From the NCBI GenBank assembly GCA_902530685.1, contig CACAAZ010000011.1, positions 1 to 43,080 on the forward strand: a stretch of DNA of 43,080 bases. The letters are read 5' to 3'. The position numbers were made by a program, and so were the translations under genes. The stretch comes from an uncultured Alphaproteobacteria bacterium. GTDB lineage: Bacteria > Pseudomonadota > Alphaproteobacteria > HIMB59 > GCA-002718135. The notes beneath the pieces were generated by a model. The model worked only from the letters and a program-made list of their open reading frames with translations, searched no databases and was not told where the DNA came from. Shown in pieces: positions 16,401 to 28,569 of this stretch (positions are counted from its first letter, which is position 1; each line of letters opens with the position of its first letter).

Positions 16401-16766
16401 TTATTCTTTTAATTTTTCCCATTCAGCTATACCACCAGTAATATTCTTTACATTCTTAATGCCCATGTCTTTCATTGTTTTAGTTGATAAAGTTCCTTGT
16501 CCACCAACACCACAAAATACAACATATTCTTTATTAGGATTTTCTTTGAAAAATTTATTTTCTAAGGGACTACCTTCTGCTAAATAAAACTCAAGAAAAG
16601 CTCTATCTAAATGAATTGCATTTCCTATTGTTCCTTTTTCAAAACTTTCTTTATCCCTAACGTCAATAAATTGTACATTTGGATCATTTAGTTTTTCTTT
16701 TGCTTGTGATGCAGAAATATTTTCAATTTCATTTTTTACATTCATCAAATCTTCAAACTTTTTCAT
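16401..16766 (-). CDS. Single-domain rhodanese-like protein
   Basis: The product is a 121-residue single rhodanese domain. ISASQAKEKLNDPNVQFIDVRDKESFEKGTI is the standard opening with the DVR motif; the active-site loop CGVGGQGTLS near residue 86 holds the persulfide-forming Cys; and NITGGIAEWEKL closes the fold. Such proteins carry sulfane sulfur, but the in vivo partner is not evident here. A good ribosome binding site lies upstream (AAGGAG at about 16775-16780 on this strand, with a second AAGGA nearer the start). The gene lies just inside the chromosome at the outer edge of the islets described here. Confidence 0.88.
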   Translation of the reverse strand: MKKFEDLMNVKNEIENISASQAKEKLNDPNVQFIDVRDKESFEKGTIGNAIHLDRAFLEFYLAEGSPLENKFFKENPNKEYVVFCGVGGQGTLSTKTMKDMGIKNVKNITGGIAEWEKLKE

Positions 16767-16783: not shown

Positions 16784-16816
16784 AATAAAGGGGCGTTCTG
16801 TAGAACGACCTTTATT
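16784..16816. terminator. Imperfect hairpin containing the outermost tmRNA-end repeat
   Basis: A perfect 6-bp stem CGTTCT/AGAACG with a 2-base loop is extended by AATAAAGG/CCTTTATT after one mismatch and one bulge. The left arm contains the 12-base copy of the tmRNA 3' end (16790-16801). No long T run follows on either strand, so termination is plausible but not certain; on the - strand it would end the 16923-17450 gene. Confidence 0.45.
16790..16801 (+). repeat. Direct repeat R1: 12-base copy of the tmRNA 3' end
   Basis: GGGGCGTTCTGT is identical to the first 12 bases of the copies at 17591 and 19511. Nine of the 11-12 bases that define it are unusually GC-rich for this window, and all three copies have the same orientation. 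It would mark the far boundary of the islet array, with later bases eroded or replaced. Confidence 0.6.
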
Positions 16817-16852
16817 TTATTATATACAGAAAATATAGGTTTTTGGAAACTT

Positions 16853-16874
16853 CTTCGTAGAAACTTCGTAGTAA
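16853..16874. repeat. CTTCGTAG iterons, outer side of islet A
   Basis: Two copies of CTTCGTAG 11 bases apart form a 22-base unit identical to 17510-17531; a further single CTTCGTAG lies at 16909-16916. They flank the HEAT-like gene on its downstream side. Confidence 0.8.
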
Positions 16875-16922
16875 GTTTTCGTTATTTGTCAGATTTCTTG
16901 TTTTGGTTCTTCGTAGTCTTTT

Positions 16923-17450
16923 TTATTCTTTAATTAAGGATAATAATTTCATTGCTAGTCTAGAAACTGCCTTTCTTCTATCTTTTGATAGTTTTTTAAT
17001 AATTTTTATATTTTCTTTTATTGTTTTATTATCAATTTTATTGAAAGTTATTAAAGCATTCATTGATTGACATAAAACAATCCAATCACTGGAATTATTA
17101 AGATAATCAGATACAATTTTTTTTGCTTTTTTTTGCTCTTTATTTTCTAATTGATTAACTAATTCTGAAAATAATTGAGCGCAGGTCCATTGTGTGGAAG
17201 ATTGTTTTATCTTTGAAATTTTGTTTAAGAAAATATGTTTAAAATCTAAAAACCATTCTGGTTTTTGTCTAAAAATTCTTTTAAAAGCATTTGATGTTCT
17301 TAACCTTACTATTTGGTCTGTGCTTGAATAACACTTAATTAATGAATTAATTCTATTTTTTTTAACAATAACATGTTCAACAACTTTTATTGTATTACCT
17401 AGTGAATTTGGATGACCACCAGTTAGTTCAGACTCATAATTCATTATCAA
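16923..17450 (-). CDS. HEAT-like alpha-helical protein of unknown function
   Basis: The 175-residue product is all helical by eye and looks like a short HEAT/ARM-type solenoid: repeated helix pairs such as NRINSLIKCYSSTDQIVRLR, then TQWTCAQLFSELVNQL and SSDWIVLCQSMNALITF. The opening ELTGGHPNSLGNTIKVVEHVI resembles a family of uncharacterised bacterial HEAT-like proteins that I know only by pattern. No catalytic motif, signal peptide or membrane segment is visible. Start: ATG 17450; a second ATG at codon 3 is equally possible. It is the only gene of islet A and is flanked on both sides by CTTCGTAG iterons. Function unknown; protein-protein binding is the most that the fold suggests. Confidence 0.75.
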   Translation of the reverse strand: MIMNYESELTGGHPNSLGNTIKVVEHVIVKKNRINSLIKCYSSTDQIVRLRTSNAFKRIFRQKPEWFLDFKHIFLNKISKIKQSSTQWTCAQLFSELVNQLENKEQKKAKKIVSDYLNNSSDWIVLCQSMNALITFNKIDNKTIKENIKIIKKLSKDRRKAVSRLAMKLLSLIKE

Positions 17451-17509
17451 TTAATTTGTTAAAATAGATCCAAAAATTTACATTATTTAATAATAAATTA
17501 TATATTTTC

Positions 17510-17540
17510 CTTCGTAGAAACTTCGTAGTAAACTTCGTAG
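17510..17540. repeat. CTTCGTAG iterons, inner side of islet A
   Basis: Three copies of CTTCGTAG at 17510, 17521 and 17533, spaced 11 and 12 bases (about one helical turn). The first two with their spacers are identical over 22 bases to 16853-16874. They end about 50 bases from R2, mirroring the distance of the outer set from R1. Confidence 0.8.
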
Positions 17541-17582
17541 AAAGGTTTTTATAAAAAATTATTGATATTACTAGATAATATT

Positions 17583-17653
17583 AAAAAAGTGGGGCGTTCT
17601 GTTGCTCGGTGCGTGAACAAGTCCTCATTCAATTACGCGTGAGCGAACACCCA
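17583..17653 (-). terminator. Remodelled hairpin over R2 followed by a T run
   Basis: On the - strand GGGTGTTC pairs with GAACGCCC (one G-T wobble), GCTC with GAGC, and GCGT with ACGC, forming a long interrupted stem, followed by ACTTTTTT. One arm is the tmRNA-derived R2 sequence; the other arm is islet B DNA. It could end transcription from islet B toward islet A. The pairing is seen directly; the function is inferred. Confidence 0.5.
17590..17612 (+). repeat. Direct repeat R2: 23-base copy of the tmRNA 3' end
   Basis: These 23 bases match 19510-19532 exactly, in the same orientation and 1920 bases apart. In the tmRNA copy the sequence is the 3' arm and loop of the terminal hairpin. Beyond 17612 the match stops (GCG here, GCC in the tmRNA). 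This is the expected trace of site-specific integration at the end of an RNA gene. Confidence 0.85.
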
Positions 17654-17763
17654 AAAGTTTAAGCATTTCCTACTGTTATCGCTTATTCTTTCTTAAAAAA
17701 GTTTATAGCACATACTTACCAATATACACAATTTTTAATTTTAATTACGCGTATATTACGCGT
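17635..17763. repeat. ACGCGT sites, outer end of islet B
   Basis: A single ACGCGT at 17635-17640 (in ATTACGCGTGAG) and a 17-base double site ACGCGTATATTACGCGT at 17747-17763. The 17-base unit recurs exactly at 19436-19452, and ATTACGCGTGAG recurs at 19444-19455. They lie close inside R2 and may be recombinase or regulator binding sites. Confidence 0.75.
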
Positions 17764-17806
17764 AAAATGAGGGCAAATAACTTAAGTTCATGTTAGTATT
17801 ATAAAA

Positions 17807-19423
17807 ATGAAAAAAGTTTTATTGTTTTTAAGTTTACCTTTTATTTTAATTTCAGGTAATCTCTTAGGTGCTGAAAAAATTGTTAATCATTACTCAGATA
17901 GCGATCAAATAATTATTGGAGTTATTAACTATGATAGCGATCTAGATAACAACAATCGATGGAATAAAATAGATAGAAAAGCCGCAAAGTATTGTGACAA
18001 AATAAAAGATGAAAGACCTACAAATGGTAATAAAACTAAAACTGCAAGACGTTTTTATACTGTTAGAAATTTTGGAGAAAACAATGAGATCATAGTCACT
18101 AATGATTGGCATGATGCTGGGAATAATTGGTACATAAGGTTTTTCTGTTCTAATGAATATGGCCCTTGGGAAAAAGCATATAAAGGTAAATATACAAAAT
18201 CATTAAAATTGCTTAAATCTTGGATTGATAATCCTCAGCAAGATAATTATCCTAAATATCAAAGTGATTTGATAACAGATGGTAGCAAAGGTAAGTTAGC
18301 CGTAGAGGATTTATTTATTTCATGTAAATTAGGCATATGCGGAAAAGTGCGTTCGCGAAGAATGCTTGTTAGCGCACATATGGATGAGATAGCATATGAG
18401 AACCTTGGTTTTGATTTCACGCCTTTACAATTACAAAAAAAGAAAGAAGAGGCTCAAAAAGAAATTGCTTTAAAAAAATCTGAGTTGGAGAAAAAAAGAG
18501 CTCAAGAAGAAGAAGAAAGGAGAATTGCGATAGCTAAGACAAAAGAAGAGGAGGCAAAAAGAAAAGCTCAAGAGGAAGAAGAGATGCGAATTGCTGAGTC
18601 TAAAAGAAAAGAAGAGGAGGCAAAAAGAAAAGCTCAAGAGGAAGAAGAGATGCGAATTGCTGAGTCTAAAAGAAAAGAAGAGGAGGCAAAAAGAAAAGCT
18701 CAAGAGGAAGAGCTTTATGTTATAGGTACAGGTACAGGTTTTTTTGTTAATGACGAAGGTTATGTTGTAACAAATGAACACGTGGCTGGAATTTGTAATT
18801 CATTAGCATCAAATATAAATGGCAAAATGCATTTATTTAATATTTTAACGTTAGATAAAAGAAATGATTTAGCACTTCTTAGAGGAGAATATAAAAATAA
18901 AAGCTTTCTCAATATAAATGTTATGGGAGCTGAATTTGGTGAGGATATTATGGCTTTTGGTTTTCCTTTAGCCGAAAACTTAAGTTCAAGTGTGAAACTT
19001 ACAAGAGGAATTGTGAGCTCATTAAGCGGTCCAAACAATGACATTTCGTTGATTCAAATAGATGCTGCTATTCAACCTGGTAATAGCGGTGGTCCAGTAT
19101 TAAATTATTATGGACAAGTGGTTGGTGTAGCATCTTCAGGATTAAATAAAATTCAAATGCTGTTAGATGAAGAGTCACCATACATTCCAGAAAATGTTAA
19201 CTTTGCTGTATCTGCAACAACTTTAACAAGTTTTCTTAAATCAAATCGAGTAAGTATTTCAAATAAATCTTTTGATAAAAAAAGCTCTCAAGATCTAGCA
19301 AAAATAGGAATGCCACCAACAATTCAATTATATTGTTTAAACACAATAGCCGCTCACAAAGAACTTAGAAATAGTGAAAAATATAATGATGTTCTTCTTA
19401 AAAAAGTTATAAATCTAAAATAA
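17807..19423 (+). CDS. Secreted trypsin-like serine protease with coiled-coil linker
   Basis: The 538-residue product has a signal peptide (KKVLLFLSLPFILISGNLLGAE). An N-terminal domain of about 170 residues that I do not recognise follows, with four Cys (KYCDKI, FFCSNE, ISCKLGICG). Next come a highly charged coiled coil at about 210-303 with near-identical 22-residue repeats, and then an S1C-type protease domain at about 305-490. The catalytic triad is visible: His in VTNEHVAG, Asp in KRNDLALL, Ser in QPGNSGGPV. There is no PDZ domain, unlike DegP at 24476. It is the sole gene of islet B. The coiled coil may hold the protease as an oligomer or at the envelope. Substrate unknown. Confidence 0.85.
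   Translation: MKKVLLFLSLPFILISGNLLGAEKIVNHYSDSDQIIIGVINYDSDLDNNNRWNKIDRKAAKYCDKIKDERPTNGNKTKTARRFYTVRNFGENNEIIVTNDWHDAGNNWYIRFFCSNEYGPWEKAYKGKYTKSLKLLKSWIDNPQQDNYPKYQSDLITDGSKGKLAVEDLFISCKLGICGKVRSRRMLVSAHMDEIAYENLGFDFTPLQLQKKKEEAQKEIALKKSELEKKRAQEEEERRIAIAKTKEEEAKRKAQEEEEMRIAESKRKEEEAKRKAQEEEEMRIAESKRKEEEAKRKAQEEELYVIGTGTGFFVNDEGYVVTNEHVAGICNSLASNINGKMHLFNILTLDKRNDLALLRGEYKNKSFLNINVMGAEFGEDIMAFGFPLAENLSSSVKLTRGIVSSLSGPNNDISLIQIDAAIQPGNSGGPVLNYYGQVVGVASSGLNKIQMLLDEESPYIPENVNFAVSATTLTSFLKSNRVSISNKSFDKKSSQDLAKIGMPPTIQLYCLNTIAAHKELRNSEKYNDVLLKKVINLK
18541..18712 (+). repeat. 66-base tandem repeat in the protease coiled coil
   Basis: About 2.6 near-perfect copies with a 66-base period (starting 18541, 18607 and 18673) encode KEEEAKRKAQEEEEMRIAESKR and its partial third copy. 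The very high DNA identity, including third positions, points to recent expansion, so repeat number may differ between strains. Confidence 0.9.
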
Positions 19424-19435
19424 ATTTTAAATTAT

Positions 19436-19455
19436 ACGCGTATATTACGCGTGAG
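19436..19455. repeat. ACGCGT double site, tmRNA-proximal end of islet B
   Basis: ACGCGTATATTACGCGT at 19436-19452 repeats 17747-17763 exactly; the overlapping ATTACGCGTGAG at 19444-19455 repeats 17632-17643. It starts 12 bases after the protease stop and ends about 55 bases from R3. Confidence 0.75.
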
Positions 19456-19509
19456 TCTGGAGCATTGTTAAGAAAGCCCAAGCATTGTCCTATAAAAACG
19501 AAAAACTAA

Positions 19510-19532
19510 TGGGGCGTTCTGTTGCTCGGTGC
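19510..19532 (+). repeat. Direct repeat R3: tmRNA 3' end, proposed attachment core
   Basis: This copy is part of the intact tmRNA gene: on the - strand it is the loop and 3' arm of the terminal hairpin GGGGC...GCCCC (19535-19511). Exact match to R2 over 23 bases and to R1 over 12. Confidence 0.85.
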
Positions 19533-19728
19533 CCCTAACCGCGCTTACCTAGAATCTAGGCAGCAAGTGCTAATCTATTATCGTTAGCGTTTATAAATTA
19601 GCCCGATAACGGTGGTACAATACCGGATAAAGTCTTTGTCTTTCAATTACCGTCGATCCTATTTCGTCCCCATGTGTGGTGGAGACGCCGGGTACCGCCC
19701 CCGGGTCCGAATAATTTATTACACAAAG
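19511..19728 (-). ncRNA. ssrA: Circularly permuted (two-piece type) tmRNA
   Basis: tmRNA rescues stalled ribosomes and adds a degradation tag. Read on the - strand, an acceptor part (about 19728-19677) comes first and ends GGCGTCTCCACCA. Five bases (19676-19672) separate it from the coding part, which begins GGGGACGAAATAGGATCGACG (19671). GGGGACG pairs with CGTCTCC as a 7-bp acceptor stem with G-U at the third pair, the alanine identity mark. A T stem CCGGG/CCCGG encloses an atypical loop GGCGGTA. ACAAAG and TAATT of the coding part pair with CTTTGT and AATTA of the acceptor part (helix P2). The tag frame at 19588-19556 reads ANDNRLALAA-stop, with the stop in a hairpin CCTAG/CTAGG. The gene closes with a GGGGC/GCCCC hairpin at 19535-19511. 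The 5' and 3' ends are approximate. Confidence 0.94.
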
Positions 19729-19760
19729 CATTTATTATCTTAGTTGATAAACAACTCTTA

Positions 19761-19766
19761 ATTATA
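19761..19766 (-). promoter_or_regulatory. Likely tmRNA promoter -10 element
   Basis: A perfect TATAAT on the - strand, in GGTATAATTAAG, about 33 bases before the inferred start of the acceptor piece. I see no good TTGACA at the right distance. Transcription would start near 19754 and leave a short 5' precursor to be trimmed. Confidence 0.5.
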
Positions 19767-19860
19767 CCTTATTCTGATTGCAGATAAAAGTTTTGTCTTA
19801 AATAGAAATTAATGAAATTTATTGTGTTTTATTCTTAATAAATACAATACATATATATCT

Positions 19861-26801: not shown

Positions 26802-28568
26802 ATGAATAATGAAATAACAGGTGCTGAAATTGTTATTAAAAGTCTAGCTGAACAAGATGTTGAAGTAGTCTTTGGGTATCCAGGAGGCGCAGTTCTTCCT
26901 ATATATGATTCACTATTCAAACAAAATTCAATTAAGCACGTTCTTGTAAGACAAGAAGGTGGAGCTATACATGCTGCAGAAGGATATGCTCGTTCTACTG
27001 GTAAAACTGGAGTTGTACTTGTAACTTCAGGACCTGGAGCAACGAATGTTGTAACTGGTTTAACTGACGCAATGATGGATAGTGTACCCATTGTATGTAT
27101 AACTGGACAGGTTCCACAACACTTAATTGGTAGTGATGCATTTCAAGAATGTGACACAACAGGCATAACTAGACCTTGTACTAAACATAATTACCTTGTT
27201 AAGGATGTTAATAAATTATCTTTTGTATTTCATGAGGCATTTACTATTGCTAAAAATGGAAGACCAGGACCTGTATTAATTGATATTCCTAAAGATGTTC
27301 AATTTGCTTCAGGAACTTATGAAGAAAAAAATAAAATAATCATTCCTTCTCATAGATTATTTGAACCAAGCCCTGATTTTGAAAAAAATAAAATTAAAGA
27401 AGCAGTAGAATTAATTTCTAAAGCTAAAAAAACCAATTTTTTATATTGGTGGCGGATGTATTAATTCTGGTCCAAAAGCTTCCAAACTTGTTAGAGAATT
27501 CATAAATATGGTTGGCTCACCAGTTACAATGACATTAATGGGTCTTGGTGTAGTAGGCTCATCAGATAAAAACTCTCTTGGTATGCTTGGTATGCATGGA
27601 ATGTATGAGGCGAATATGGCAATGCATGAATGTGATGTCATGATAAATATAGGAGCTAGATTTGATGATAGGGTGACAGGCAGACTTGATGCATTCTCTC
27701 CTAATTCAAAAAAAATCCATATTGATATTGATGAAAGTAATATTAATAAAACGATTAATGTTGATGTTCCAATAATAGGTGATGTTAAACAGGTTGTTGC
27801 AAAGATGATAATCCTTTGGAAAGAAAGTAAATTTAAATTAGATGATAAAGAACTGAAATTATGGTGGGATAAAATAAATAAATGGAAAGAAGTAGATTGT
27901 TTAAACTATATTAACGAAGGTAAACAGATTAAACCGCAGTATGCAGTACAAAGACTCTACGAATTAACGAAAAATACAAAAACATTCATTACAACTGAAG
28001 TAGGACAACACCAAATGTGGGCCGCTCAATTCTATAAATTTGAGGAACCAAATAGATGGCTTACATCTGGTGGTTTAGGGACCATGGGATATGGTTTTCC
28101 TGCTGCAATTGGAGCTCAAGTAGCTCATCCAGATGCTTTAGTAGTCGATATAGCAGGAGACGCGTCTATACTAATGAACATTCAAGAAATGAGTACAGCT
28201 GTTCAATATAGACTGCCTGTAAAAATATTTATTTTAAACAATGAATACATGGGAATGGTAAGACAATGGCAAGAACTTTTACATGATGGAAGATATTCCG
28301 AAAGTTATACTGATAGTTTACCTGATTTTGTGAAGTTAGCTGATAGTTATAAAGCTGTCGGTTTAAGAGCAAAGACAACTGATGAACTTGATGACGTTAT
28401 AACTCAAATGATTGAAACAAAAAATACAGTCATTGCTGATATTTGGGTTACAAAAGAAGAGAATTGTTTTCCAATGATTCAGAGTGGGTCTGCTCATAAT
28501 GAAATGCTGTTAAGTAAAGATCAAAAACAAGACAAAAAATCAGCTGAAAAAGGAAAAATTTTAGTTTA

Positions 28569-28569
<1 letters not shown>
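26802..28569 (+). CDS. ilvB: Acetolactate synthase large subunit, frame broken by one extra A
   Basis: This ThDP enzyme starts valine, leucine and isoleucine synthesis. The first frame (26802-27464) gives 220 residues with VFGYPGGAVLPIYD, the cofactor Glu in LVRQEGGAIHAAEGYA and the domain up to LISKAKK. The frame then fails at seven A (27426-27432) and stops. Removing one A restores KAKKPIFYIGGGCINSGPKAS and runs on through the second frame to 28569, with the ThDP motif GDASILMN...NN near the C-terminus. The repaired protein is 588 residues, the normal length. Every conserved part is present, so the gene is either functional with a sequence error or recently broken. It abuts ilvN (TAATG). 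Confidence 0.9.

Follow-up and report, generated by a model that had tools for sequence, protein, structure and literature searches.

The 3' end of a permuted (two-piece) transfer-messenger RNA (tmRNA) gene, ssrA, carries two tandem single-gene units, cassettes A and B, in the 43,080-nucleotide stretch examined here (the window; contig CACAAZ010000011.1, C11, of assembly GCA_902530685.1) from an uncultured alphaproteobacterium of the HIMB59 lineage. These units are very probably gene cassettes that lack an integrase, possess complete attachment sites and are moved by tyrosine integrases acting in trans, which stack them at ssrA. Cassette ends have fixed site layouts common to related species, and therefore look like parts of a gene-swapping system with borrowed integrases. 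An earlier note, made from this sequence alone, had proposed that satellites or remnants without an integrase are stacked at ssrA and depend on one acting in trans; comparison with relatives supports this, but no helper for either unit was found in the 56% complete assembly and the action in trans is one that we infer.

Read in the direction of ssrA, the locus runs from the last 22 bases of the gene (GCACCGAGCAACAGAACGCCCC) through unit B, an exact copy of this core, unit A and the core AGGTCGTTCTACAGAACGCCCC to a rhodanese gene (Table 1). The units measure 1898 bp (B) and 779 bp (A) between cores, in line with the 1.9 and 0.8 kb given by the earlier note, whose description of one gene per unit, no integrase and a permuted tmRNA (encoding the tag ANDNRLALAA) was also confirmed. 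All three reported copies of the ssrA 3' end are present, and GGGGCGTTCTGT occurs on the plus strand of the window only at 16790, 17591 and 19511, its reverse complement being absent from the window. Two copies are identical over 23 bases (17590-17612 and 19510-19532), but the third, at 16790-16811, is a core of 22 bp with a left half unlike that of ssrA (AGGTCGTTCT read with ssrA), a half that recurs in other cassettes. With up to three mismatches, the 22-mer core occurs at the former two window places only in the 1.05-Mb assembly of the window genome, which is estimated to be 56% complete. The short repeats described near both ends of each unit hold their positions: all six window copies of CTTCGTAG lie within unit A, and ACGCGT lies five times at the ends of unit B but once elsewhere, at 28160. 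Pairs of CTTCGTAG no more than 20 bases apart are confined to unit A in the assembly. The supposition that each repeat family is private to its unit did not hold, as the same arm types recur at constant core distance in relatives' cassettes with unrelated cargo.

Table 1. Features of the ssrA locus, by position in the window
Feature	Position	Strand	Support
ssrA, permuted tmRNA gene with attachment target at 3' end	19508..19793	-	Rfam RF01849 216.9 bits + RF04321; ARAGORN tmRNA*
Core 1, ssrA 3' end, ssrA/cassette B junction	19511..19532	-	
Cassette B, layout II, distal core ssrA-like	17613..19510	-	
Core 2, between cassettes B and A, same sequence as core 1	17591..17612	-	
Cassette A, layout I, identical to cassette in L060 (G046)	16812..17590	-	
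Core 3, distal end of cassette A; left half is that coupled to ACGAAG arms	16790..16811	-	
P' arm site ACGCGT of B, offset 58 from core 1	19447..19452	.	
P' arm site ACGCGT of B, offset 69 from core 1	19436..19441	.	
P arm site ACGCGT of B, 145 bp before core 2	17758..17763	.	
P arm site ACGCGT of B, 134 bp before core 2	17747..17752	.	
P arm site ACGCGT of B, 22 bp before core 2	17635..17640	.	
P' arms of A, CTTCGTAG at 17510, 17521, 17533	17510..17540	-	
P arms of A, CTTCGTAG at 16853, 16864, 16909	16853..16916	-	
Cargo gene B, 538 aa, trypsin-like (HtrA-like) protease domain, antiparallel to ssrA	17807..19423	+	Pfam Trypsin_2 7e-23, residues 309-441
Cargo gene A, 175 aa (TTG start) or 173 aa (ATG start), function unassigned	16923..17450	-	no Pfam match over cut-off
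Rhodanese gene beyond array; adjoins ssrA in empty-type loci	16401..16766	-	Pfam 6.8e-21

The order was sampled with 162 genomes (genomes, contigs and loci are numbered below with G, C and L). A tmRNA match was obtained in 74 of 102 genomes of the genus, and loci were added from 7 other genomes of the family and from 38 of a second family, where the ssrA pattern, which misses ssrA ends reading GAGC, matched 39 of 52 genomes and all but G120 were used. The 126 sequences entered exclude L309 and L310 and include six of 33 loci from named records carrying cassette A, of which L279 was kept. After removal of L083 (contig ends inside ssrA), L084 (partial ssrA) and L085, L255, L262, L265, L273 and L277 (no ssrA by blastn), 118 loci remained, window included, and were oriented on ssrA. 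At the junctions listed, the end of ssrA varies little if at all, and directly beyond it the loci diverge, with a few starting sequences recurring. Downstream of ssrA, 74 sequences contain 80 core copies in the ssrA direction and one in reverse (up to 6 mismatches in 22), against none in one shuffle of each of the 74 oriented sequences.

Cassettes were then defined by cores with at most one mismatch in the last 12 bases or three in 22, segments below 150 or above 7000 bp being excluded. This gave 129 core-bounded cassettes in 71 of the 118 loci, up to seven per locus, with a median length of 823 bp; exactly one open reading frame (ORF) of at least 90 aa is present in 93 of them, two to five in 29 and none in 7. 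The checks proposed in the earlier note turned out in favour of mobility. Other cargos do lie between the same cores, in 61 cargo clusters, and the empty site it envisaged is represented by 7 of the 118 loci, in which the rhodanese gene begins 21-23 bp past ssrA. Occupancy is not fixed among close relatives, since L069 and L051, about 98% similar in thyA/fumC, yet differ in one cassette. Nor are the repeats scattered over unrelated loci: with zero or one mismatch, the end motif of cassette A is found only on contigs with ssrA or cassette cores, and two mismatches are needed for matches away from ssrA (G014 C4 and G051 C2). The GCACAC-type end motif matches many unrelated places too at up to three mismatches; at zero or one it is restricted to contigs with ssrA or cores save for one exact match in G126 C17, where no core was seen in the surrounding 9 kb.

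Attachment sites of the lambda kind consist of a core plus arm sites, and the repeats inside the cassettes take the place of such arms in two fixed layouts. In layout I, arms of ACGAAG or GCACAC lie about 50, 62 and 73 bases past the proximal core, and again 97, 52 and 41 bases ahead of the distal one. In layout II, arms of ACGCGT, GTGCGTA or TGTGCCGT (GCGACT also being admitted to the count) lie 57 and 68 bases past the proximal core and about 145, 134 and 22 before the distal one, with sites absent or shifted in single cassettes. When membership required one 6-mer in at least three of a layout's windows and on both sides, layout I comprised 50 cassettes in 18 cargo clusters, 28 of the 50 being copies of A, and layout II 19 cassettes in 13 clusters, with L043.4 counted in both; 45 shifted-window controls for each gave means of 0.11 (layout I) and 0.02 (layout II) and a maximum of 1. 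Arm sequence and the left half of the distal core also vary together. Counted by cargo cluster, ACGAAG arms go with core class 1 (8/1 vs 7/51, Fisher p 8e-6) and ACGCGT arms with the ssrA-like core (8/0 vs 25/36, Fisher p 0.0017). The right-end 105 bp are conserved across unrelated cargo, with identities of 0.91 (ACGAAG, 7 clusters), 0.85 (ACGCGT, 8 clusters), 0.76 (GCACAC, 4 clusters) and 0.73 (other layout II, 5 clusters), and just inside this segment identity is only 0.58-0.61. The cassettes WIN.1 and L062.4 are alike at both ends (97.5 and 94.3%) and contain different genes.

Cassette A provides the evidence of recent movement. Its gene is present in 28 of the 129 cassettes, directly after ssrA in 24 loci and second in 4. 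Mean identity between copies is 96.2% (378 pairs), compared with 90.4% for thyA (300 pairs) and 86.1% for fumC (171 pairs), and the cassette exceeds thyA in 86% of pairs and fumC in 96%. All 779 bp are identical between the window and L060, where thyA is 76.8% and fumC 84.5% identical, and this identity ends where the cores end, on both sides. The neighbours are different: cassette B before and rhodanese after in the window, ssrA before and another cassette after in L060. Of the 27 copies of A listed, 19 retain three ACGAAG sites per end.

Homologous recombination or transformation between shared ends could swap genes with no integrase involved, and ends conserved across cargos, as well as the different genes of WIN.1 and L062.4 between ends 94-98% alike, have the expected look of such cargo replacement. 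We consider this explanation unlikely. The window/L060 identity halts at 22-bp cores between differing neighbours, arm-core distances are fixed, arm type goes with a core half, and the reverse core orientation is nearly absent (80 to 1), all of which speak against it.

An integrase gene stands at the same site in a relative. In L016 (G005) an intact tyrosine integrase gene of 336 aa (Pfam 1.8e-25) begins 102 bases past the ssrA end, and GCCGAAG occurs twice, 11 bp apart, at offsets 58 and 69 as counted by eye, which are layout II positions; the integrase's own attachment site (attP) would carry GCCGAAGC. Cassette 2 of L073 has TGTGCCGT arms in layout II and contains a broken member of this integrase family, and L018 holds a third piece, a short remnant for which AGTCACA stands at 57 and 68 (by eye), so that the family is represented by three genes or pieces in the 118 loci, two of them broken. 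L012.2 and L059.1 share the TGTGCCGT arms, and the integrase query had no match in the locus of either. Elsewhere in the genomes, 27 loci with members of the L016 family were examined for arms; by eye, tRNA-like sequence precedes several of the members. In 23 of the 27, a 7-mer is repeated upstream of the start at a spacing of exactly 11 bp (L405, with a pair spaced 13 bp only, was left out), compared with 2.4% of shuffles in which 9-13 bp was allowed. These pairs have about 15 different sequences, TGTCACA being common to 9 of the 23. L016, L073 and the upstream pairs therefore tie layout II to the L016 integrase family, and suggest that the arm sequence is a changing address.

The assembly of the window genome has a single integrase-domain match, L001 (G000 C1:69698-70285), a tyrosine recombinase of 359 aa adjoining a gene that reads like SIR2 by eye. 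Among the genus genomes no integrase match is better than 5.8e-28, whereas the second family has 51 genomes with many matches at 1e-36 to 1e-43, as expected for XerC/XerD. The earlier note had suggested looking for an integrase gene elsewhere near arrays of the unit A repeat or of ACGCGT; the contig of L001 is without the ssrA core and paired CTTCGTAG, both of which are on C11 alone. In favour of this resident lone recombinase as the enzyme acting in trans on all cassettes, it is the one integrase-domain match of the assembly, and matches with open frames of similar length are common among the genus genomes. We regard it as very unlikely that L001 has this role, as G043, G078, G087, G088 and G090, 81-90% complete, carry cassette A with no integrase-domain match (incomplete assemblies leave some room here), a single enzyme would not account for several arm types, and the core and paired CTTCGTAG are restricted to C11.

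A number of observations weigh against the reading of cassettes moved in trans. No helper integrase for the window's units was found in the 56% complete assembly of their genome, and no intact integrase with their arm sequences in any set searched. Among the 102 genus genomes, an integrase-domain match beside ssrA on the ssrA contig occurs only in G005 (intact) and G047 (broken), both of the tyrosine type; in the 60 other genomes, no integrase lies within 12 kb of ssrA where this was located (46 genomes). Eight scans of viral collections for a helper phage gave no contig with the ssrA core plus arms among the matches listed, and no excised circle or excision was seen. Of the 118 loci, 47 are without a recognised core-bounded cassette, some of these stretches being short. 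The layout windows, and likewise the arm types and core classes, were defined on the data in which they were counted, so for the layouts the weight rests on the shifted controls, and 61 of the 129 cassettes fall outside both layouts under the strict rule. Single-cell assemblies may also contain foreign DNA; the identical cassette A between different neighbours in two contigs argues against this, without excluding it.

The cassettes off the strict layout and the scarcity of the L016 family, with two of its three representatives broken, are also what immobile remnants would leave: decayed islands, now fixed, whose integrases were lost and whose arms are fossils. This reading is improbable, as cassette A is identical over 779 bp between genomes whose flanking genes are 77-84% identical, changes place in the array (first in 24 loci, second in 4), and retains three ACGAAG sites at each end in most of its listed copies. 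The integrase of layout I was not found, and viral scans with the cassette-A end motif gave nothing related; two viral matches to this motif are coding coincidences by eye. Among 14 viral-collection contigs with the exact core, it resembles a tmRNA end by eye in 8 and lies in unrelated, more G+C-rich DNA in the other 6. A viral scan for CTTCGTAG pairs had the 12-bp core in none of the 80 loci listed (of at least 120 stretches), further viral matches, including L293-L301, have no ssrA-like context by eye, and phage relatives of the integrase query are all below 60% identity.

Mobile cassettes could be explained as follows. A cassette would travel between cells and occur as a circle of one gene plus an attP made up of P arms, the 22-bp core and P' arms. 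An integrase of the tyrosine type, provided in trans, would read the arm sequence of the cassette and recombine the circle with the core at the ssrA 3' end. Each integration would keep ssrA intact and shift older cassettes outward, producing a stack; in the window, A would have been inserted first and then B. Movement at this site would require two or more types of integrase, an L016-type family for layout II (B) and another for layout I (A). A wider proposal, to which we give even odds, is an integron-like cassette economy with phage-type attachment sites in a lineage of streamlined ocean bacteria, having one tmRNA dock, a shared pool of single genes, the arm as address, and several largely orthogonal channels, each address being read by a different, mostly absent integrase.

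Streamlined ocean bacteria have small genomes yet variable gene content, and single-gene exchange needs a vehicle. Mobile cassettes at ssrA would be such a vehicle, with defined ends and hence a searchable signature, and would come with naturally occurring integrases whose recognition of arm sites seems to vary. Tests could then address how cassettes are paired with integrases and by what route a new gene gains a complete attP; WIN.1 and L062.4 share both ends and not their cargo.

The cargo is varied. In a scan of 40 of the 79 representative ORFs against Pfam at E 0.01, 23 matched and 17 did not, and the families included methyltransferases, acetyltransferases, a trypsin-like protease, bactofilin, a polysaccharide lyase, nucleases, a permease and type I restriction subunits; 8 of these ORFs and genes A and B were compared with PADLOC. 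Neither A nor B matches an integrase or any recombinase family. Gene B matches NCBIfam degP_htrA_DO at 3.1e-25, under the model's cut-off, and PADLOC RT-Protease_XI at 7.1e-21, with the protease part alone covered. Gene A had no match as a defence gene in the PADLOC scan and none to solved structures up to E 1; weak matches to Cnd1, phrog_168 and XopD (E 0.003-0.005) were rejected, and its predicted structure (predicted local distance difference test, pLDDT, 42.8) was not interpreted. Outside the window's genus, relatives of gene A occur in 7 of 385 genomes searched, four at 37-39% identity, and two of their loci, L415 and L416, have no tRNA or tmRNA gene.

The main cargo ORF is antiparallel to ssrA in 48 of 60 cargo clusters (binomial p 3e-6), gene A being an exception. 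A 5.6-kb cassette with ACGAAG arms in L337:6626-11949 carries type I restriction-modification subunits. The rhodanese gene and a 154-aa gene, often found beyond the array, are inverted, reordered or directly after ssrA in some loci (L078, L017, L023, L026), as if once cassettes themselves. A second tmRNA gene in G001 (L015, on C33) is about 68% identical to that of the window in the aligned part and has a similar core at its end. Away from the array, a window gene reading like the acetolactate synthase large subunit (26802-28569) is split into ORFs at 26802-27464 and 27508-28569, possibly by a frameshift or sequencing error.

Several known systems resemble the array. Cis-mobilizable elements are flanked by the attachment sites attL and attR, have no integrase of their own and stack by accretion. 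Cassettes A and B are likewise flanked at both ends by cores and arms, with one cargo gene each and no integrase or transfer gene, and related integrase genes exist at the site in G005 and, broken, in G047. Unlike such elements, many unrelated single genes here share a small number of conserved attachment modules, and no conjugative element was seen next to them, though none was searched for. In streamlined Dehalococcoides, the available parts of two papers (PMC2764846, PMC3146451) describe tandem units at ssrA with repeats of about 20 bp of its 3' end; 15 of 31 islands are without an integration module and were suggested to be cis-mobilizable (the term is used in PMC3146451), integration there involves a CcrB-like serine recombinase, and the vcr islands measure about 12 kb. 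Tandem direct repeats of the ssrA 3' end are equally found here, whereas most units have one gene, the linked integrase is of the tyrosine type, and the arm layouts occur with several arm sequences. The Dehalococcoides serine recombinase module (DsiB) has no match in genes A and B, and the integrases of G005 and G047 are tyrosine recombinases; the serine type was not searched at other loci.

The additive flexible genomic islands of Actinomarinales and Methylopumilus, as described in the accessible text of PMC7771536 and PMC10872708, are small cassettes at tRNA genes with tRNA-end repeats in streamlined aquatic bacteria. The target here differs in being a permuted tmRNA, and those descriptions, in the same portions, are without arm sites, cassette classes or a helper integrase. 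Integrons capture cassettes at one site and line them up in arrays, most cassettes having a single gene and their functions being varied. The ssrA array shares these properties, but differs in its attP-like ends with arms and in cargo mostly antiparallel to ssrA; no intI lies beside it, the sole integrase match of the incomplete window genome being on C1. Phage satellites of the phage-inducible chromosomal island (PICI) kind carry their own integrase plus packaging or interference genes, and the one cargo gene per unit is of none of these kinds. As for integron attC sites, PMC2217521 reports the SAR11 hypervariable regions to be without them. Tycheposons are bordered by tRNA genes, have their own tyrosine recombinase and span 4-200 kb (PMC10872708, accessible text), compared with 0.8 and 1.9 kb, a tmRNA gene and no recombinase in A or B. 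The available portions of an AEGEAN-169 paper (PMC10308909) have no mention of integrase, tmRNA, genomic island or recombinase, and such arrays were not described for this lineage in the literature searched, subscription papers, preprints and the words AEGEAN-169/HIMB59 being outside the search. The cassettes are best read as a variant of the nearest known kinds, the cis-mobilizable elements and the Dehalococcoides ssrA islands, and not as a separate category.

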